From: Candidatus Zixiibacteriota bacterium
GTDB lineage: Bacteria; Zixibacteria; MSB-5A5; WJJR01
DNA length: 64,000 nucleotides
NCBI GenBank assembly: GCA_036397555.1
Contig: DASWIS010000025.1
Span: 1 to 64,000, forward strand
Reading direction: 5' to 3'
In this document: piece by piece, positions 17,605-28,219 of the stretch
How the letters are laid out: every line of letters starts with the position of its first letter
Position numbering within the stretch: position 1 is the first letter of the stretch
Translations under genes and position numbers: made by a program
Notes under the pieces: model-generated
Seen by the model: the letters and a program-made list of their open reading frames with translations, nothing else
What the model was told of the DNA's origin: nothing
Databases searched by the model: none

Positions 17605-19410
17605 TCAGGTTCCCGGGGAGACCTCTGGCGCGGTTTCGGATGCGTTCAGTAAGAGTGTATAAAGCAGCCAACTCTGCGACGCCGAAAGCCCATTGGAGAC
17701 AAGGGCTTTCGATGCCTTGATGCTGACCATTGCGCTGACTGCGGACGAATCCTCAAGCAGTCGGGTCAGGGCGGACGTCAACTCCTCCCCCGGACGTCGA
17801 GAACGCCGCTGCACCGCACCACGCCATCGGGTATGTAAGGTCTCCAGCCATCGGTGTCCCTGGACTAAGTCGCGCAGATGCTGCCGGGCACGGTCATACC
17901 GAGTCCCAATGCGCAGGCCCGTATTCGAGACTGGGACATCAACCAGGCGCTCATGAATTCGACGAATCAAGTGCCCATACAGACGCCGTCGTTTTTTCCA
18001 CGTGCTGGGCGCCCCAAGGGCGAGCTCAAAGCAGGGTCGTCCATAAAAGGGCGCGACCACCCACAAGTAGCAGCGATTGCGATCTTCGCCGTCAAAATAC
18101 GCCTGACGCTGATATTCCCAGACCATCCGCAGATATCGGTCGGTTTGATCCGATTCGGGGAACGTGTCGACGAAATGCCGCAACTGTTCCGCCATGAAAC
18201 CCGGACTGAAGCCGAAGATGGCGCCGATTTGTTCGGATGTGAAGGCGGCGGCGCGGTCGAACATCAGCCCGATCAGATTATCGTCTGATCCAATTCTCTG
18301 ATGGGGCCGGCGTTCCGGCATCACCAAATCGCCCCCTTCTCCGGTCCAAAGAACCGCTCCGGATCCATGCTCGGATACGATTTCGGAGAGGTACTCGTCG
18401 GCGTAAGCCATGGCCCCGGAATTGCGACCATCGGTCATCCTGATGAGCCGATTGGCCGTGGCAAGGGGCGGTTCGCTGAGCCGAACGACCGCGTGGGGGA
18501 AGCCGCAGAGTTCCGCGATCCGGGCGGCAATGCCCGCTTCGCGGTCACCATGCTGCCGGCCGTAGACGAAAGTCCGGGCGACCACCCTGATGCCGGCGCG
18601 ATGAAGCGATCCGGCCACCGCACGCGAGTCCATCCCTCCTGACAGAGAAACGACATTGCGGTCACCGGTCAGCGCCGCACGACGCGCTGTTGATGCGATC
18701 AGCTCGGTTGAGAGACGTGCGGTGCATTCCTGGAATCCGCCGGTCCATTCGCGCTTGTCTGCCGCCCACGGCCTCTGATTGAGGACTTGGGGGGGCAGGT
18801 CCCCGTCAATCTTCCAGCACAGGACAGCACCCGGCGGCAGGCGAAAAACCCCCTCCGAGGTTGTTCGATCTCCCCACGGAAACCCGAAGACAAGACTTTG
18901 CGCGACGCCCAAACGATCGGGGCGCTTTCCACCACATAAGACCCGAATGAACTTCGGCTCACGCGATACGAGAAGGCGGCCGGAATCAAACGACCAGAAG
19001 ACCGGCAATCGGCCCAGCACATCAGAGGAAATGAACACTGCGTGATGCGGGGGCGCAGTGATCGCGACAATGACAAAGTCACCGTCCGATGCAGCGGCAA
19101 TGTCGGAGATCGCCGCGGCCGTCGCTTCGGGAGTAGCCGACTCGCTCAGCAACCGACAGAGGTCAGGCACAATCGGCGGAGGTTGCGAATAGACCATCCC
19201 TTCGATCAGTAGAGTCGTTGCATCCTGGACTTCGACCTGAACCGGGTATTCGGGGTAGGCCACAAATGACAAGTGGACATGCGCTGATGACGCGACTTCC
19301 CGGACGGCATAACGCGCATCGTGACACATCGACGCAGATGCGCGCGCAATGCGGGTGGCAAGTTGCTGATCCAGACCATTGCGGTCCGCTGCAAGACCGA
19401 ATCCGGGCAT
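17605..19410 (-). CDS. Asparagine-synthetase-like protein lacking the glutaminase cysteine
   Basis: 601 residues from an ATG at 19410. The N-terminus MPGFGLAADRNG aligns by position with the MCGIAG start of asparagine synthetase B, with proline where the catalytic Cys2 should be. A divergent Ntn-type domain follows (about 1-200; RLPVFWSFDSGRLLVSREPKF resembles the family's D-x-x-G-x-x-P-L region). The ATP-pyrophosphatase loop SLSGGMDSRAV is intact at 255-265, and WTGEGGDL is the second nucleotide motif. So the synthetase half looks able to adenylate a carboxylate while glutamine hydrolysis is probably lost, as in beta-lactam synthetases and lasso-peptide cyclases. No precursor peptide or partner was found nearby; the substrate is unknown. 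A TTG start at 19467 would add 19 residues and is less likely. Confidence 0.8.
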   Translation of the reverse strand: MPGFGLAADRNGLDQQLATRIARASASMCHDARYAVREVASSAHVHLSFVAYPEYPVQVEVQDATTLLIEGMVYSQPPPIVPDLCRLLSESATPEATAAAISDIAAASDGDFVIVAITAPPHHAVFISSDVLGRLPVFWSFDSGRLLVSREPKFIRVLCGGKRPDRLGVAQSLVFGFPWGDRTTSEGVFRLPPGAVLCWKIDGDLPPQVLNQRPWAADKREWTGGFQECTARLSTELIASTARRAALTGDRNVVSLSGGMDSRAVAGSLHRAGIRVVARTFVYGRQHGDREAGIAARIAELCGFPHAVVRLSEPPLATANRLIRMTDGRNSGAMAYADEYLSEIVSEHGSGAVLWTGEGGDLVMPERRPHQRIGSDDNLIGLMFDRAAAFTSEQIGAIFGFSPGFMAEQLRHFVDTFPESDQTDRYLRMVWEYQRQAYFDGEDRNRCYLWVVAPFYGRPCFELALGAPSTWKKRRRLYGHLIRRIHERLVDVPVSNTGLRIGTRYDRARQHLRDLVQGHRWLETLHTRWRGAVQRRSRRPGEELTSALTRLLEDSSAVSAMVSIKASKALVSNGLSASQSWLLYTLLLNASETAPEVSPGT

Positions 19411-19528
19411 ATCGAGCCGACACCAACACTCAGTCAGAGATGCGGCAGACCGAGCGTAGGCGTTCAAAGGACGAAAGACAACGAATTCCGGTCAACAAGT
19501 CGCATTGGACGATTGTCGGCGGCAGTGA

Positions 19529-19557
19529 TTGACTTGGTCTGAGGTCGCGGTGATATT
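19529..19557 (+). promoter_or_regulatory. Sigma-70-like promoter of the citrate operon
   Basis: TTGACT at 19529-19534 and GATATT at 19552-19557, separated by 17 bases, place transcription start about 25 bases before the ATG at 19589. It sits in the divergent gap after the asparagine-synthetase-like gene and supports the shorter start of the first citrate gene. Confidence 0.55.
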
Positions 19558-19588: not shown

Positions 19589-21157
19589 ATGGCGCGTCTC
19601 CACGAATACAAAAGCAAAGCTCTCCTGTCGGAGGCCGGATTTTCGGTTCCAAGGGGGCAGGTCGTACGCCATCCCTCCGAAGTCGGCGCGGCGATTCCCA
19701 AAATCGGCCTGCCGGTAGTGGTTAAAGCGCAGGCGTGGACCACGTCACGAGCGTCGCAGGGGGCGATCGCCTTCGCTGACGATCACCATGAAGCCGCCAC
19801 AGCAGTCGCCAGGATGTTGTCCCTGAAACTGGGCGGGTTCGATGTCACTGAGATCCTCATTGAACAGAAGCTGGATATCACGCGGGAATTCTACGCCGGG
19901 GTGATCGTCGATGATGCCAACCGTACACCGCTGGTAATCTTTTCTTCCGTCGGAGGAACCGGAATCGAGGAGTTGTCCCGGAAACATCCGAAGAATGTGG
20001 CCAAAACCCCGGTCGACATTCGTGTTGGACTGCGCGGATTCGAGGCACGGGATACGGTGCGCCGTGCCGGAGTCACAGGGCAGCTACAATCGGAGCTGGC
20101 CGCTGCGTTAGTGGGGCTGTACAAAGTCGCACGCCATTGGGAGTGCCGTTCCCTGGAGATCAACCCGCTGGTACAGACCACCGACGGCAAGCTGGTGGCT
20201 TGCGACTGTCGGATGACGGTCGACGATAACGCCGTCTTTCGCCATCCAGAGTTGGAAATCGAGATTGCACGCGAATTCGGACGGCCACCAACTGAACTGG
20301 ACAAGATCGCGTGGACGGTCGAGAAGGATGACTATCGCGGCACATTCTACTTTATCGAAATGGCGCGCGGCTACAAGCGCGGCGCGGGATACATCGGCTT
20401 CCACGGCGCCGGGGGCGGCGGCTCGATGATGTCGATGGACGCGTTGATCCAGCGCGGCTACAAGATTGCCAACTTCACCGACACCTCCGGCAATCCCCCG
20501 GCGTCGAAGGTGTACCGCGCCGCGAAGATCATCCTCTCGCAGCCGAATATCGACGGCTACTTCGGTTCGGGGTCGGGAGTCGCATCACAGGAACAGTTTC
20601 ATTCGGCGCGCGGGCTGGTGAAGGCGTTTTGGGAGGAAAACCTCTCGATCCCGGCCGTGATTCGTCTTGGCGGCAATGCCGAGGATCAGGCCGTTCGCAT
20701 CCTGACCGAATTCACCAGGAACCTGCCTGCCCCGGTTGAGGGATATAAAAAGGACGACACCGCCGACTTCTGCGCCGAGCGGATGCAGCTCTTAGTCGGA
20801 GCGAACAAGGCGAACGCGCAGCCGCGTAAACCAATCGTACCGTCGGTGCCGGTGTTCGAGGCCAAGGACCCATACACGTTCGACACGCCAACCGGGACCA
20901 TTGTTTACGACCATAAAGTTTGCCGTGACTGTGAATCGAAGATTTGCGTTGAGACCTGTGTGCCACAGATTCTCAAGCTGGAAGACGGCAAGCCGGTGTT
21001 GAAGATCTCGCGCGAAGACGCCAAGGGCGGCCAGTGTACCGAGTGTCTCGCGTGTGAAGTGGAATGCCGTGTCGGCGGCAAGGGCGGCGGACGGGTGATG
21101 CTGCCGATTCCGGGGCTGGATGAGTATCGCAGCGGCGCAAAGGCAGCGACGGCATGA
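19589..21157 (+). CDS. ATP-grasp CoA-ligase beta subunit (citryl-CoA/succinyl-CoA synthetase type) fused to a ferredoxin-like domain
   Basis: 522 residues from 19589 (MARLHEYKSKALL, the usual SucC-like start). Residues 1-230 are an ATP-grasp domain (VVVKAQAWT, EILIEQKLDITREFYAGV, CRSLEINPLVQTTDG). Residues about 250-410 are the CoA-ligase flavodoxin-like domain (GGGGSMMSMDALIQRG, RLGGNAEDQAVRIL). The last part has two cysteine clusters: C445-x2-C-x4-C-x3-C and C483-x2-C-x2-C-x3-C, the latter canonical for [4Fe-4S]. Ordinary SucC and ATP-citrate-lyase small subunits end before this. With the next two genes it makes a CoA ligase plus citryl-CoA lyase set, so citrate activation is the best guess; succinate or malate are alternatives. 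The iron-sulfur tail could be a docking or regulatory module. Confidence 0.78.
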   Translation: MARLHEYKSKALLSEAGFSVPRGQVVRHPSEVGAAIPKIGLPVVVKAQAWTTSRASQGAIAFADDHHEAATAVARMLSLKLGGFDVTEILIEQKLDITREFYAGVIVDDANRTPLVIFSSVGGTGIEELSRKHPKNVAKTPVDIRVGLRGFEARDTVRRAGVTGQLQSELAAALVGLYKVARHWECRSLEINPLVQTTDGKLVACDCRMTVDDNAVFRHPELEIEIAREFGRPPTELDKIAWTVEKDDYRGTFYFIEMARGYKRGAGYIGFHGAGGGGSMMSMDALIQRGYKIANFTDTSGNPPASKVYRAAKIILSQPNIDGYFGSGSGVASQEQFHSARGLVKAFWEENLSIPAVIRLGGNAEDQAVRILTEFTRNLPAPVEGYKKDDTADFCAERMQLLVGANKANAQPRKPIVPSVPVFEAKDPYTFDTPTGTIVYDHKVCRDCESKICVETCVPQILKLEDGKPVLKISREDAKGGQCTECLACEVECRVGGKGGGRVMLPIPGLDEYRSGAKAATA

Positions 21158-22960: not shown

Positions 22961-23494
22961 ATGCGCGATGAAATCCGAAAGGTTTTCCCGGAAATCAACG
23001 AAATCAAAGACGCCTCACTGCGCGAGAAGACAGTCGCGAGCTGGGTGCGCGCGATGGAAGTCAGCGATTTGACGCTCGATGACTTGCGTCAGATGCCGTT
23101 CACGCTGCTGGTATCCGATGTGAACGTGACGTTTGTCGAACACGTGCGGACTGTTTGCCGCATGTGCATGGCCTGCTGGGATGTGCTGCACGACGCCTAC
23201 GGCAGCCGCTTGACGGTCGACCGTGATGTCTTGATCGCCGGTGCGATGCTGGCGGATGTCGGCAAGGTGCACGAGATTACGCGCGTGAACGGCCAATTTG
23301 TCAAAAGCGACAAGGGCAAGCTGCTGCGTCACCCGTTCACGGGCGTCGGCATCGCCTGGGAGCAGGGACTTCCCGAGTCGGTTCTGCACGTCATCGCGAT
23401 GCACTCGAAAGAAGCAACCGACGGCCGCCGCTCGCCGGAATGCATTGTCTTCCATCACGCCGACTTTATCGATTTTGAGCTCGTCGGCGGCTGA
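22961..23494 (+). CDS. HD-domain protein
   Basis: 177 residues from 22961, preceded by GAGGGTGAAGCG. It has the helical layout of HD-domain phosphohydrolases: FVEHVRTVCRMC (first His), LIAGAMLADVGKVHEI in the position of the HD doublet, LRHPFTGVGIAWEQG, VLHVIAMHSKE and a terminal HHADFIDFEL. In the doublet the His is replaced by Ala (AD), although Asp and the following GK are kept and other histidines remain. Substrate unknown; it could be a nucleotide hydrolase or a metal-binding regulator. The gap to the lyase gene is 93 bases on the same strand. Confidence 0.72.
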   Translation: MRDEIRKVFPEINEIKDASLREKTVASWVRAMEVSDLTLDDLRQMPFTLLVSDVNVTFVEHVRTVCRMCMACWDVLHDAYGSRLTVDRDVLIAGAMLADVGKVHEITRVNGQFVKSDKGKLLRHPFTGVGIAWEQGLPESVLHVIAMHSKEATDGRRSPECIVFHHADFIDFELVGG

Positions 23495-23519
23495 GCCCGT
23501 CGCAACGAGCCGCTTGCCC

Positions 23520-24989
23520 GTGCTAAGTGAGCTGAAGACACGCCACGGTCGATTGGGACTGGTCGTTCTGATGATCGTGGCGGCCTGTCTCAGCGTCAGT
23601 ATCGTTCTCGCTCTGGATGCGCGGTTTCATGCTGACGATTTCCAGCAGATGCCCCGCCTGCAGGTGCCGCTCGGCGATTCGATTGTCGGCTTCTTCACGG
23701 CGCCCGACCCCAACGCCTCGCAATATTTTCGCCCATTGGCGCACACGACCCAGCGAGTGTTGATGGCGCTTTTTGGCCCGCGCGCGTGGGTCTTTCACCT
23801 GTTAAACCTCCTGCTGCACGTGGCGGCAACGTGCTTTCTGTATCGGTTGGCGAAGTCGGTTGCAGGGACTAAAATCGTCGCCGCCGCCTGCGCGACCGTG
23901 TTCGCAGTTCATGCGACACATGCCGAAGCGGTCGTGTTCGCATCGAACATCAGCGGCCTGGGCGGAGCGACATTCTACCTGGGAACGCTGCATTGCCTCG
24001 ATCGTTTCCGCAAGAATGGGGAGATGAAATGGGCATTGTGGTCGATGATCGGCACGATACTCTCGGCGGGCTTTTCCGAAATCTTTGTCACACTGCCGTT
24101 GGCAGCATGGATGATCAGCCGTCAGCGGACAAACGCACGCAGGGCGAAGATGCCTATCGCGGGGATGGTCGCGATCGGTGCGGTCGTGTGGGCGTGGCGG
24201 CTCGCCATCGGTGTGCGGACAGAGTACTTGTCGGATACGTTGACGTTGAACCCACTGGGCTGGGTCCGCAACGCGCTATTCTACCTCGCGCACTTCCTTC
24301 TGCCGATCCGCAGCATCTTCCATGCAATCGGCTACGAAAACTACCAGCGGTTGCGCGATGCGCTGCCGGTTGTGCCCGACTCGGCCGCATATCTCGCAGT
24401 CGTAGCCGCCGCCGCTATAGGAGTCGTTATGGTTGGATTTAGAGTCTGGAAGAAGCTGCCGCAGCCGGTGCGCACCGGACTTCTGCTTGCTTTGGTGACA
24501 GCCATTCCGGTCGTGACTCTGAACCGCACGGGAATGCGTTTGCTCTATCTCCCGTCCGTGGGATTGGCCCTGGCGGTGGCGGGACTGATCGCGGCCGATG
24601 CCGCCGATCAGTGGCGACGTCGACTGCTGTGGCTGTGGATCGCGATCATGTCTGTCGCGCTGGTCGATCAGGTCGCTGTTTGGCGACGGGCGGGGCGCCT
24701 GGCCGAACAGGTACTGACTCAGGCCGCCGATATCCGCGAAGTTTTGTCCGCTGACCGGGCGGTCGTGTTCGCCGATGTCCCGCAGATGCGGGCCGGGGCG
24801 ATGGTGTTCTCCATCGGCCTCGTGGAAGCGGTCCGTTGGAAGTCGGGGTATGTCGGCGATGTCTATGAGTTTGGAAACATCAACGCCGACACGACCGGAA
24901 TTCCCCTGGGCGCTGCATGGTACGAATGGAGCGAAGATCGGTTTGTCGGGATCGATGAATTGACGGTGCGAACAAGACGCTCACCCTGA
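23520..24989 (+). CDS. Polytopic membrane protein, GT-C/TMTC-like
   Basis: 489 residues from a GTG at 23520; TTG at 23514 is an alternative and there is no good ATG. About ten hydrophobic segments are visible, starting LGLVVLMIVAACLSVSIVL. A short soluble loop after the first segment contains HADDFQQM and later SQYFRPLAHTTQRVL, which, with AVHATHAEAVVFASNISGL, resembles the membrane part of TMTC-type O-mannosyltransferases and related glycosyltransferases that use lipid-linked sugars. No TPR repeats follow. Function not established. It lies between citrate-module genes on the same strand but may not share their function. Confidence 0.65.
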   Translation: MLSELKTRHGRLGLVVLMIVAACLSVSIVLALDARFHADDFQQMPRLQVPLGDSIVGFFTAPDPNASQYFRPLAHTTQRVLMALFGPRAWVFHLLNLLLHVAATCFLYRLAKSVAGTKIVAAACATVFAVHATHAEAVVFASNISGLGGATFYLGTLHCLDRFRKNGEMKWALWSMIGTILSAGFSEIFVTLPLAAWMISRQRTNARRAKMPIAGMVAIGAVVWAWRLAIGVRTEYLSDTLTLNPLGWVRNALFYLAHFLLPIRSIFHAIGYENYQRLRDALPVVPDSAAYLAVVAAAAIGVVMVGFRVWKKLPQPVRTGLLLALVTAIPVVTLNRTGMRLLYLPSVGLALAVAGLIAADAADQWRRRLLWLWIAIMSVALVDQVAVWRRAGRLAEQVLTQAADIREVLSADRAVVFADVPQMRAGAMVFSIGLVEAVRWKSGYVGDVYEFGNINADTTGIPLGAAWYEWSEDRFVGIDELTVRTRRSP

Positions 24990-25046: not shown

Positions 25047-26981
25047 ATGGGACAAACAGTCGTCGAAAAGATCGCCACCGCGCACGCGGTCGGGCTGAAG
25101 CCGGGTCAGAGGGTCTACGCGGGCGACTTCATTCGCATCCGTCCCAAACACATCATGACCCACGACAACACCTCGGCGGTCATCTCCAAATTCATGTCCA
25201 TCGGAGCCGCCCGGATTGCCGATCCCAAACAGCCGGTCTTTGCGATCGACCACGACATTCAAAACAAAGACGAGTCGAACCTCGCCAAGTATGCCAAGAT
25301 AGAGTCATTCGCCAGAGTACACGGGATCGACTTCTACCCCGCCGGGACCGGGATCAGTCATCAGGTCATGGTCGAGGAAGGATACGCCACGCCCGGGCGG
25401 CTGGTGGTGGGCAGCGATTCGCACTCCAATCTCTATGGCGCGGTCGCCGCATTGGGGACACCGGTGGTGCGCACCGATGCCGCATCGATCTGGGCCACAG
25501 GGACCACATGGTGGCAGGTGCCGCCGGTCGCCAAGGTCAATCTGAAGGGACACCTGCAGCCGGGTGTTGTCGGCAAGGACATCATCATCGCCTTATGCGG
25601 GCTGTTTAATCACGATGAAGTGCTGAACATGGCGGTCGAGTTTGTCGGCGAGGGCGTGGCGCCATTGTCGATGGATCAACGCCTGAGCATCGCCAACATG
25701 ACCACCGAATGGGGCGCGTTGGCCGGGGTTTTCCCATTTGATGAAGTCTTGCGCGACTATCTCTACGGGCGTGCCGACTACCTCAGCGCCAAAGCCAATG
25801 GCAGTGCTCGGATCACGCGCGATGCGGTGGACACTTGGTACGCCCAGCGGCTGTCACCGGACGACGATTCGCACTATGACATCGAATTGACATTGCACCT
25901 CGCCGGTGTGATACCCCATGTGTCGGGACCCAATCACGTGAAAGTCATGCGGGCGCTGCCGGAGATTGAGAAAGAACGTGTGCGCATCAACAAGGCGTAT
26001 CTGCTCAGTTGCGTGAATGCGCGTCTGGAAGATCTCGCCGAAGCGGCCAGGATCATGCGCGGGCGCACAGTCGCCGAAGGCGTGACGTTCTATGTCGCGG
26101 CGGCATCGGCGAATGTGCAGCGACGGGCCGAAGAACTCGGATACTGGAAGACGCTGGTCGATGCCGGCGCGGTCACATTGCCCTCGGGGTGCGGGCCGTG
26201 CATCGGTCTGGGGCAAGGCACGTTGGAAGCAGGCGAGGTCGGCATCAGCGCCACCAACCGTAATTTTCAGGGACGAATGGGGCACCGTGACGCGATTGTC
26301 TACCTCGGCAGTCCCGCTGTCGTGGCGGCATCGGCAGCGGCCGGCTACATCGCATCGCCGACAAAGTTTGAGAATGTCGATGCGCGAGTCGAGATTATCA
26401 AACACGGGCGCGCCCAGCGCGCAGCCGAAAGCTCCGAGATTGTGGCGGGATTTCCCGACAAGGTCAGCGGACGACTGCTTTGGTTGCCGGTCGATAATCT
26501 CAACACCGACGGTATCTACTCCGGTAAGCTGACCTACCGAGACGATGTCACCAAGGACGAAATGGCGATGGCATCATTTGAAAACTATGATCCCGACTTC
26601 AAAACCATCGGGCAGAAGGGCGATGTCGTGGTCGCCGGGCAAAACTTCGGCACCGGCTCGTCGCGCGAACAAGCGGCGACCTGCCTGCTGTATCGCGGCA
26701 TCCCCTGCGTCATTGCGTATTCTTTTTCGGAAACCTATAAGCGCAATGCGTTCAACAATGGTTTTGTGGTCTTCGAGTGTCCGGAACTGGTCGAGTATCT
26801 GCGTGAGAAGTACAAGGGCCAAAGCGGCAAGACGGTGGTCGGCACAACGATTGATATCGACTATCAGGCATCGGTTCTCTCGCTCGATGGCCAGTCATTC
26901 CCGTTCTCTCCCTTGTCAACCGTCGCGCAGGCATTGGTTGTCGCTGGAGGAGCAGAGAATCTCGTGCGCTCGCAGTTGTAA
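25047..26981 (+). CDS. Aconitase / homoaconitase family hydratase
   Basis: 644 residues from 25047 (MGQTVVEKIATAHAV). It combines the catalytic and swivel domains in one chain. Iron-sulfur cysteines are in LLSCVNARL and SGCGPCIGLG. Other motifs: GDFIRIRPKHIMTHDN, GSDSHSNLYGAVAALGTP, SATNRNFQGRMG, and in the swivel domain GQNFGTGSSREQAATCLL. The pattern is closer to fungal-type homoaconitase (Lys4) than to AcnA/AcnB, so the substrate could be citrate/isocitrate or homocitrate/homoisocitrate. The neighbouring citryl-CoA genes favour citrate; no homocitrate synthase is in the window. It precedes an isocitrate-dehydrogenase-family gene that would use the product. Confidence 0.87.
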   Translation: MGQTVVEKIATAHAVGLKPGQRVYAGDFIRIRPKHIMTHDNTSAVISKFMSIGAARIADPKQPVFAIDHDIQNKDESNLAKYAKIESFARVHGIDFYPAGTGISHQVMVEEGYATPGRLVVGSDSHSNLYGAVAALGTPVVRTDAASIWATGTTWWQVPPVAKVNLKGHLQPGVVGKDIIIALCGLFNHDEVLNMAVEFVGEGVAPLSMDQRLSIANMTTEWGALAGVFPFDEVLRDYLYGRADYLSAKANGSARITRDAVDTWYAQRLSPDDDSHYDIELTLHLAGVIPHVSGPNHVKVMRALPEIEKERVRINKAYLLSCVNARLEDLAEAARIMRGRTVAEGVTFYVAAASANVQRRAEELGYWKTLVDAGAVTLPSGCGPCIGLGQGTLEAGEVGISATNRNFQGRMGHRDAIVYLGSPAVVAASAAAGYIASPTKFENVDARVEIIKHGRAQRAAESSEIVAGFPDKVSGRLLWLPVDNLNTDGIYSGKLTYRDDVTKDEMAMASFENYDPDFKTIGQKGDVVVAGQNFGTGSSREQAATCLLYRGIPCVIAYSFSETYKRNAFNNGFVVFECPELVEYLREKYKGQSGKTVVGTTIDIDYQASVLSLDGQSFPFSPLSTVAQALVVAGGAENLVRSQL

Positions 26982-27100: not shown

Positions 27101-28219
27101 ATGCCCAAGTACAAAATCGCCTGGATGCCCGGAGACGGTGTCGGGCACGATGTGATGGAAGCGGCGCGCATTGTGTTGGATGCACTCCAGCTCGACGCCG
27201 AATACATCCCCGCTGACATCGGCTGGGAGTTCTGGTGCCAAGAGGGCAATCCACTGCCCGAACGGACGCTTCGGACGCTGCGCGAAACCGATTGTGCGCT
27301 CTTCGGCGCGATTACCTCCAAGCCGAAGGAAGAGGCCGAAGCCGAGCTGGCACCGGCGCTCAAGGGCAAGGGATTGCAGTACCGTTCGCCGATTGTCGGG
27401 CTGCGGCAGGCGTTGAACCTGAAAACCAATCTGCGGCCGTGCAAAGCGTACGCGGGCAACCCGCTTAATTACCGGGACGACATCGATCTGGTGGTGTTTC
27501 GCGAGAACACGGAGGACCTGTATTCGGGGGTCGAATTCCATCCTGTCCCCGATCCTGTCAGAGCCACGCTATCTGAACACAATAAAGCGATGAAGAAGTT
27601 CGACAATGTCGCCGCCAAAGATCTGGCCATCTCCTGCCGGGTCATCTCACGTGCCGCCAGCGAGTCGATTGTCACAGCGGCATTTGAGTATGCGAAAAGG
27701 TATGGGTACAAGTCGGTCACAGTCGTCGAGAAACCCAATGTGCTGCGTGAGACATCGGGATTGTTCGTGCGCGCCGCGCGCGAAGTCGCCAAAAAATATC
27801 AGGGCATCGAGCTGATCGAAACCAATATCGACGCGATGTGCATGTGGCTGGTGAAGAATCCACAGAATTACGGCGTCCTGGTCGCCTCCAACATGTTCGG
27901 CGACATCATTTCCGATCTGTGCGCGCAACTGGTCGGCGGGCTGGGATTCGCATCTTCGGGGAACATCGGTGATGACTACGCGGTCTTCGAGCCGACTCAT
28001 GGCTCCGCGCCGAAGTACGCGGGGCAGCACAAGGTCAATCCGATGGCGATGCTGCTGACCGTCAAGCTCATGCTTGACTGGCTTGGTGAGACCGCTCAGG
28101 CGTCGCGTCTGGAGACGGCGATTGCCACTATCATCCGGGAAGGCGAGGTCCGCACCTACGACATGGGCGGGTCGAGCACGACTCTTGAGGTCGCGCAGGC
28201 GGTGGCGAGGAGACTATAG
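27101..28219 (+). CDS. Isocitrate/isopropylmalate-family NAD(P)-dependent decarboxylating dehydrogenase
   Basis: 372 residues with GGGAGA upstream of 27101. Family features: IAWMPGDGVGHDVMEAA at the start, LRQALNLKTNLRPCKA (substrate arginines), FRENTEDLYSGVEF, VEKPNVLRETSGLF, SNMFGDIISDL and EPTHGSAPKYAG for the cofactor site. The sequence fits isocitrate or homoisocitrate dehydrogenase better than isopropylmalate dehydrogenase, but the substrate loop (RSPIVGLRQ) is unusual and I cannot decide. Paired with the aconitase-like gene 119 bases upstream. Its end overlaps the end of the convergent lptC gene by six bases. Confidence 0.85.
   Translation: MPKYKIAWMPGDGVGHDVMEAARIVLDALQLDAEYIPADIGWEFWCQEGNPLPERTLRTLRETDCALFGAITSKPKEEAEAELAPALKGKGLQYRSPIVGLRQALNLKTNLRPCKAYAGNPLNYRDDIDLVVFRENTEDLYSGVEFHPVPDPVRATLSEHNKAMKKFDNVAAKDLAISCRVISRAASESIVTAAFEYAKRYGYKSVTVVEKPNVLRETSGLFVRAAREVAKKYQGIELIETNIDAMCMWLVKNPQNYGVLVASNMFGDIISDLCAQLVGGLGFASSGNIGDDYAVFEPTHGSAPKYAGQHKVNPMAMLLTVKLMLDWLGETAQASRLETAIATIIREGEVRTYDMGGSSTTLEVAQAVARRL

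Follow-up and report, generated by a model that had tools for sequence, protein, structure and literature searches.

A candidate citrate-type CoA-ligase large subunit with a fused eight-cysteine ferredoxin-like domain, shared by uncultured bacteria from four or more phyla

In the window (the whole stretch of 64,000 nucleotides of Candidatus Zixiibacteriota DNA that was analysed), one uninterrupted reading frame encodes an SCS/CCS-type ATP-grasp CoA-ligase large subunit that continues into an eight-cysteine tail, and this fusion is conserved in uncultured bacteria belonging to at least four phyla. The arrangement suggests a link between the redox state of the cell and a step of central metabolism that is itself non-redox. 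From our data we infer that the tail is a redox-sensing or docking regulatory module, a reading to which we give a probability of about 0.42 and which is preferred over a scaffold as well as over electron coupling.

The fused gene, its operon and the host genome

The ATG start (MARLHEY) is fixed by homologues, which gives a protein of 522 aa, and a TTG start at 19529 (542 aa) was rejected as unsupported by them. The coordinates of the gene, its domains and its neighbours are collected in Table 1. GVASQEQF, RLGGN and C395 of the CoA-ligase domain are invariant in the alignment of homologues, and the acyl-substrate loop aligns with the segment TDIGGNPPAEKMYKITKIIL of 6hxq, the citryl-CoA synthetase (CCS) large subunit of Hydrogenobacter thermophilus, 6hxp being the citryl-CoA lyase (CCL) of the same organism. 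C395 (20771-20773), a ninth cysteine at the end of the CoA-ligase domain and outside the ferredoxin-like domain, is Cys in 45/45 sequences. As in a CCS large subunit, ATP-grasp and CoA-ligase architecture is combined with a separate small subunit containing an active-site His, and a Citrate_bind (PF16114) match in the large subunit reaches 1.4e-5, which is below the family cut-off.

Table 1. Positions in the window of the fused gene, its domains and the other operon genes
Feature	Position	Strand	Details and support
Putative citrate-type CoA ligase large subunit fused to ferredoxin-like domain	19589..21157	+	522 aa; coordinates include the stop
ATP-grasp domain, residues 1-220 (boundary approximate)	19589..20248	+	PF08442, 6.8e-44 (match at residues 23-215, numbered on the 542-aa frame)
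C-terminal CoA-ligase/acyl-substrate domain, residues 240-395	20306..20773	+	Loop TDTSGNPPASKVYRAAKIIL; alignment with 6hxq
Variable linker, about 33 aa, residues 396-428	20774..20872	+	Mean majority identity 0.36
Eight-cysteine ferredoxin-like domain, about 80 aa, residues 429-510	20873..21118	+	Motifs, Fer4 profiles, alignment
Cys codon starts within the ferredoxin-like domain	20921, 20930, 20945, 20957, 21035, 21044, 21053, 21065	+	Both motifs span 20921-21067
Small subunit, SucD/CCS-small type, 308 aa	21154..22080	+	CoA_binding/Ligase_CoA domains; phosphohistidine segment SHAGA kept
Citryl-CoA-lyase homologue, 257 aa	22094..22867	+	6hxp, 5.5e-46; NCBIfam NF004869
HD-domain protein, role unassigned	22961..23494	+	HDIG, 3.7e-5; operon position kept in most clusters
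Aconitase-superfamily isomerase, homoaconitase type	25047..26981	+	Loop TDGIYSGKLTY; TIGR00139; best PDB match homoaconitase 4kp2
Isocitrate/homoisocitrate-type dehydrogenase	27101..28219	+	Loop SPIVGLR; NADP-type motif HGSAPKYAGQHKVNP; profile and alignment

The fused gene is the first of an operon which continues with the small subunit, whose start shares 4 nt (ATGA) with the stop of the large subunit, and then with the citryl-CoA-lyase homologue, the HD protein, the isomerase and the dehydrogenase. The lyase homologue scores 237.9 bits on NF004869, passing the cut-off of 212, and 241.4 on NF004866, just below 245. A PMT-type membrane protein frame (23298-24989) overlaps the HD gene and sits between it and the isomerase; this gene is lineage-specific, with a similar one in L025, and is absent from most clusters. 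An asparagine-synthase-like gene (17605-19467, minus strand) is divergent from the operon, and a relative of it adjoins the lyase in L119, a locus of genome G002.

Elsewhere the host genome (2.63 Mb, 100% complete) contains a separate, ordinary and tail-less SucC/SucD pair (C29) with ndk-like and malate-dehydrogenase-like neighbours, assigned by eye, a full Si-citrate synthase, a PRK07229 aconitase, PFOR and a KorA/KorB-type pair, the last assigned at subfamily level (TIGR03710, 661.5 bits, cut-off 482.75; TIGR02177, 275.5, cut-off 261.9). Since ordinary SucC/SucD, citrate synthase and aconitase are also present, the fused-ligase cluster is an extra module beside the normal set. No match for the 2-oxoglutarate dehydrogenase E1 (OGDH) was found in the host genome. 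With regard to a reductive TCA cycle, the host has PFOR and, at subfamily level, a 2-oxoglutarate:ferredoxin oxidoreductase; citrate cleavage does not take the place of citrate synthase there, the full Si-type enzyme being present too.

Distribution of the fusion and variants of the cluster

The fusion is carried by 8/133 genomes of Zixibacteria, 6/245 of Neomarinimicrobiota and 32/396 of Acidobacteriota (at least two of these 32 being contig-end fragments), and by two of Spirochaetota. No full-length unfused relative was found in the genomes of the phyla searched, and the matches below E 1e-65 to 1e-70 that reach the C-terminus are all fused, with the exception of contig-end fragments (e.g. 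L064) and of L045, one row with an in-frame stop. In the tree, 44 fused rows lie together on one side of the branch from SucC; the row L002, with a branch of 3.0, is untrustworthy, and the fused clade is independent of it. In plasmid records the fusion was not seen: the 103 tblastn matches are all below 60% identity and two of them cover at least 80% of the query, and the matches listed have 28-34% identity and all end at residue 450 or before.

The order large subunit, small subunit, lyase, HD protein, isomerase and dehydrogenase recurs in three phyla, and a lyase gene is found in nearly every fused cluster. In one Acidobacteriota group (L067, L068, L006) the isomerase and dehydrogenase are replaced by PrpD/MmgE and a hydantoinase/allantoinase-like gene, which suggests a catabolic use of the Acidobacteriota cluster, and the Spirochaetota copies have neither of these pairs. 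Nitrilase-like neighbours are present in some tail-bearing clusters without aconitase/IDH. An aconitase-like gene in the cysteine-loss cluster L084 was considered as a citrate enzyme and rejected, as the gene is LeuC.

Several single loci deviate from the common arrangement. In G002, of the same family as the host, both ligase subunits are missing at the equivalent place, which has the asparagine-synthase-like gene on one side and the lyase on the other, and lyase and isomerase are retained despite this loss. In the Neomarinimicrobiota cluster of locus L005, a DNA methylase-like gene (PF01555, 9524-10513) separates the fused large subunit from the small one, and in G012 (L117, 8164-14286) a ligase-less citryl-CoA-lyase homologue adjoins a gene set resembling a 2-oxoacid:ferredoxin oxidoreductase operon. 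The Acidobacteriota genome G1097 carries the PrpD-type cluster, and a full-length match for citrate synthase (PF00285) was not found in it; the ligase/lyase pair could therefore provide its route for citrate.

The cysteine motifs and the role of the tail

The eight cysteines form a first motif CX2CX4CX3C (C445, C448, C453, C457) and a second motif CX2CX2CX3C (C483, C486, C489, C493). All eight are kept in 42 of the 45 aligned homologues from four phyla, each cysteine column being Cys in 42-45 rows. Column conservation among the 45 sequences is 0.66 in the ferredoxin-like domain and 0.65 in the ATP-grasp part, and 0.36 in the linker, where the spacing from C395 to C445 varies between 44 and 55 residues. 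A sequence-only reading had described the protein as a citrate/succinate CoA-ligase beta subunit fused to an eight-cysteine ferredoxin-like domain with CxxCx4CxxxC and CxxCxxCxxxC clusters; a citrate-type large subunit, the fusion and the conservation of the clusters among homologues are borne out, and citrate is plausible as the substrate, although the neighbouring isomerase and dehydrogenase look homocitrate-type. The same reading raised the question of whether the fusion is widespread and already annotated: it is widespread, in four phyla, and no annotation as a known enzyme class was found. It knew of no described CCS or ATP citrate lyase (ACL) with the fusion, in line with the open-access literature, where we found no published description of a ferredoxin-tailed CoA ligase. 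CCS, CCL, ACL, SCS and Fer4 domains are known, and it is their combination here which was not found described.

A Fer4 dicluster profile matches 12/12 family members scanned at E<=0.01 (best 8.6e-6), and against the PDB the tail profile matches mostly ferredoxin-type Fe-S proteins, weakly, with HycB4 at 2.7e-5 and, as second match, the ferredoxin-type subunit of a 2-oxoglutarate oxidoreductase (8ys5_D, E 0.0018). The window domain itself scores 20.6 bits on Fer4_9, under the Pfam curated cut-off of 27. In AlphaFold the tail has a pLDDT of about 50 within the full chain and 44 alone (from a shallow alignment of 7 rows), with no confident ferredoxin fold, and a fold search with the full-chain model returned SCS/CCS/ACL folds only; the assignment of the domain fold rests for this reason on sequence.

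The most informative sequences are those in which cysteines are lost. In two Acidobacteriota species, G1017 (L065) and G978 (L066), C445, C448, C453 and C493 are lost and C457, C483, C486 and C489 are kept, and the identical pattern is found in a third, G1089 (L136, 6372-7991, minus strand). In 8-Fe (clostridial-type) ferredoxins three ligands of each cluster come from one motif and the fourth is the final Cys of the second motif, and by this rule the four lost residues make up exactly one cluster's set; a random loss of four among the eight Cys would hit one or other exact set with a chance of 2/70. The loss by a whole-cluster unit in three species is strong evidence that the tail is truly a dicluster domain and can do with a single cluster, and gives indirect support to cross-ligation in which Cys I-III of one motif are joined by Cys IV of the second. 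In the tree, L065 and L066 form a sister pair (SH-aLRT 99), so the cluster loss was probably one evolutionary event.

Soluble electron carriers have an acidic surface and a Pro following Cys IV, traits that the tail does not share. This Pro is absent in 43/45 rows in motif 1 and in all rows in motif 2; following motif-1 Cys IV it occurs only in L065 and L066 among the 45 rows, and is also noted for the loss row L136. The mean net charge is -2.4, i.e. near-neutral, and a stand-alone copy of the domain was found in none of 58 related genomes, where it occurs only in the ligase fusion.

The setting in which the tail is conserved is one of reducing metabolism: OGDH is absent from 24/28 surveyed genomes and 2-oxoacid:ferredoxin oxidoreductases are present in 30/31, G978 being the one without a match; neither survey included the loss species G1089. 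The cluster-loss genomes G978 and G1017 have OGDH. The association of cluster loss with OGDH is only suggestive, since OGDH also occurs with the full set of eight Cys in G906 and G1151, and five oxidoreductase matches were found in G1017; the association also carries little statistical weight because the loss was probably a single event. A reading of the tail as a marker of genomes with these oxidoreductases was dropped as uninformative, as they occur in nearly all surveyed genomes, fused or not. No gene for a redox partner or 2-oxoacid:ferredoxin oxidoreductase was found in any fused cluster seen.

Judged from their families, the large and small subunits would form a CoA ligase that uses ATP and acts on a hydroxytricarboxylate of the citrate type (citrate or homocitrate), and this ligase together with the separate lyase would interconvert the tricarboxylate, ATP and CoA with an acyl-CoA, the lyase splitting the latter into acetyl-CoA and a 2-oxoacid; the isomerase and the NADP-type dehydrogenase would act on the tricarboxylate, on the other side of the ligase/lyase. 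The tail, presumably a ferredoxin-type domain with two cross-ligated [4Fe-4S] clusters that is attached through a flexible linker, would stand outside this chemistry and most likely sense the redox state (or oxygen or ferredoxin), altering the activity or assembly of the ligase, and the ATP-linked ligase step would be confined to the reducing state. The lack of Pro after Cys IV, the charge of the tail, the variable linker, and the absence of a stand-alone relative and of a redox gene argue against the tail shuttling electrons to a carboxylase, and regulation is preferred over electron carriage also because the tail is kept in catabolic-looking clusters and one cluster is dispensable. Redox sensing, which the sequence-only reading had offered as its alternative, fits better than the carboxylase docking it had proposed, and the regulatory role may be suggested on these grounds.

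The domain could be conserved equally well for docking, or because its cluster is purely structural. It is possible, if somewhat unlikely, that the clusters hold the fold of the tail and that the tail binds the ligase to the separate lyase or another subunit, channelling the acyl-CoA and giving a split enzyme what ATP citrate lyase has through its covalent fusion. The lyase gene in nearly every cluster, the conserved C-terminal LPI-GL tail and GKCTECLACE surface, the sufficiency of one cluster in three species and the confinement of the domain to the fusion are all in line with such binding; however, it is general knowledge that Hydrogenobacter CCS and CCL function tail-less, two oxygen-labile clusters would be a costly means of holding a fold, and the apparent link between cluster loss and OGDH would be left unexplained.

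An improbable reading is that a 2-oxoglutarate or pyruvate:ferredoxin oxidoreductase serves as the docking or electron-exchange partner of the tethered ferredoxin, by which (homo)citrate cleavage would be linked to reductive carboxylation. The sequence-only reading had proposed a look for 2-oxoglutarate:ferredoxin oxidoreductase genes, and the KorA/KorB-type pair found in the host, with PFOR and no OGDH, is favourable to this proposal, as is the match to 8ys5_D, although generic ferredoxin similarity explains the latter. Its docking to a ferredoxin-dependent carboxylase was not supported, since no such gene lies in the fused clusters seen, the tail is retained in clusters without aconitase/IDH, and one cluster is lost in three species, among them the oxidoreductase-less G978; the oxidoreductases also occur in the fusion-less genomes G002 and G006 of the same family, and the tail has neither the Pro after Cys IV nor a strong negative charge. 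That the tail is vestigial, its cysteines are due to chance or the fusion is an assembly artefact is hardly credible in spite of the scores under the Pfam cut-offs and the low AlphaFold confidence, as the domain is conserved in 45 sequences of four phyla beyond a variable linker and is lost by whole-cluster units.

Substrate and comparison with known systems

The sequences leave citrate and homocitrate as substrate at roughly even odds. Homocitrate, in which case the enzymes would be a homocitryl-CoA synthetase and lyase linking acetyl-CoA and 2-oxoglutarate with 2-oxoadipate, has by our estimate somewhat under an even chance. It is favoured by the window isomerase, which scores 762.8 bits on the homoaconitase profile TIGR00139 (cut-off 529.9), whereas the other aconitase of the genome is typical (984.8 on PRK07229); the split isomerases of other phyla belong to the hacA family, and the loop TD-I-G--TY is common to the split and unsplit kinds. 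All readable cluster dehydrogenases, from three phyla, have SPIVxLR like the S. pombe homoisocitrate dehydrogenase 3ty3, where isocitrate dehydrogenases carry S-x-N. The canonical citrate synthase and aconitase elsewhere in the genome point the same way, as does the ligase loop GVASQEQF, unlike the A-N-x-T of ACL and CCS, which for CCS was seen in the alignment. On the other hand, the dehydrogenase carries KYAG-YKVNP, the cofactor motif of NADP isocitrate dehydrogenases, and scores 344 on AksF (cut-off 540); the lyase is nearest to citryl-CoA lyase, lysine-pathway genes are absent from the cluster, and a homocitryl-CoA enzyme was not found in the open-access literature. Citrate is also supported by the GNPPA-K-Y loop, common to the window ligase and citryl-CoA synthetase and not shared by SCS. 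Overall the large subunit is nearer to the Thermus SCS 3ufx (210.1 bits) than to CCS 6hxq (115.8 bits), and on the NCBIfam SucC (succinate-CoA ligase beta) profile it reaches 236.4, short of the cut-off of 370. The complete proposal of an Fe-S-tailed, redox-gated homocitryl-CoA synthetase/lyase, i.e. an ATP-conserving or ATP-spending route between acetyl-CoA plus 2-oxoglutarate and 2-oxoadipate without homocitrate synthase and with a ferredoxin-domain switch, is doubtful.

Should the tail prove to be a redox sensor, direct Fe-S control would extend to a branch point of central carbon metabolism that is ATP-linked and non-redox, and this in bacteria that already run TCA steps on ferredoxin; the lineages that have shed one cluster would be a natural test. 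Homocitrate as the substrate would mean a new kind of entry to 2-oxoadipate. Either way, this ligase family could be overlooked or wrongly named in Zixibacteria, Neomarinimicrobiota, Spirochaetota and Acidobacteriota by screens for autotrophy or the reductive TCA cycle that seek Aquificales CCS or AclAB.

It is useful to compare the system with known enzymes. SucCD (Thermus 3ufx; the host C29 pair) has the same fold at 30-33% identity, but is tail-less with a GGGA-type loop, where the window ligase has SGNPPA and fails all NCBIfam SucC cut-offs. ATP citrate lyase (Chlorobium AclAB, human ACLY) shares the reaction logic and the ATP-grasp/CoA-ligase domains; it differs in having the lyase covalently joined to the ligase and no Fe-S domain, in contrast to the separate lyase and Fe-S-tailed ligase found here. 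The Fer4 modules of clostridial-type 2[4Fe-4S] ferredoxins and of DmsB-HycB likewise have two four-Cys motifs, some of the DmsB type with CX2CX4CX3C as in the window tail, for which the unit loss suggests the same cross-ligation; the window tail differs in lacking the Pro after Cys IV, in its near-neutral charge and in being always ligase-fused. The isomerase and dehydrogenase have signatures in common with fungal homoaconitase and homoisocitrate dehydrogenase of the lysine alpha-aminoadipate pathway, in which homocitrate comes from homocitrate synthase and no CoA ligase/lyase takes part, and the NADP-type motif sets the window dehydrogenase apart. H. thermophilus CCS and CCL (6hxq, 6hxp) likewise consist of a ligase split into large and small subunits and a separate, homologous lyase, with the GNPPA-K-Y loop. 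CCS is without the Fe-S tail, and the window ligase, with GVASQEQF in place of A-N-x-T, is closer overall to SCS; compared with Hydrogenobacter CCS/CCL, the window operon adds a dedicated isomerase, a dehydrogenase and an HD protein.
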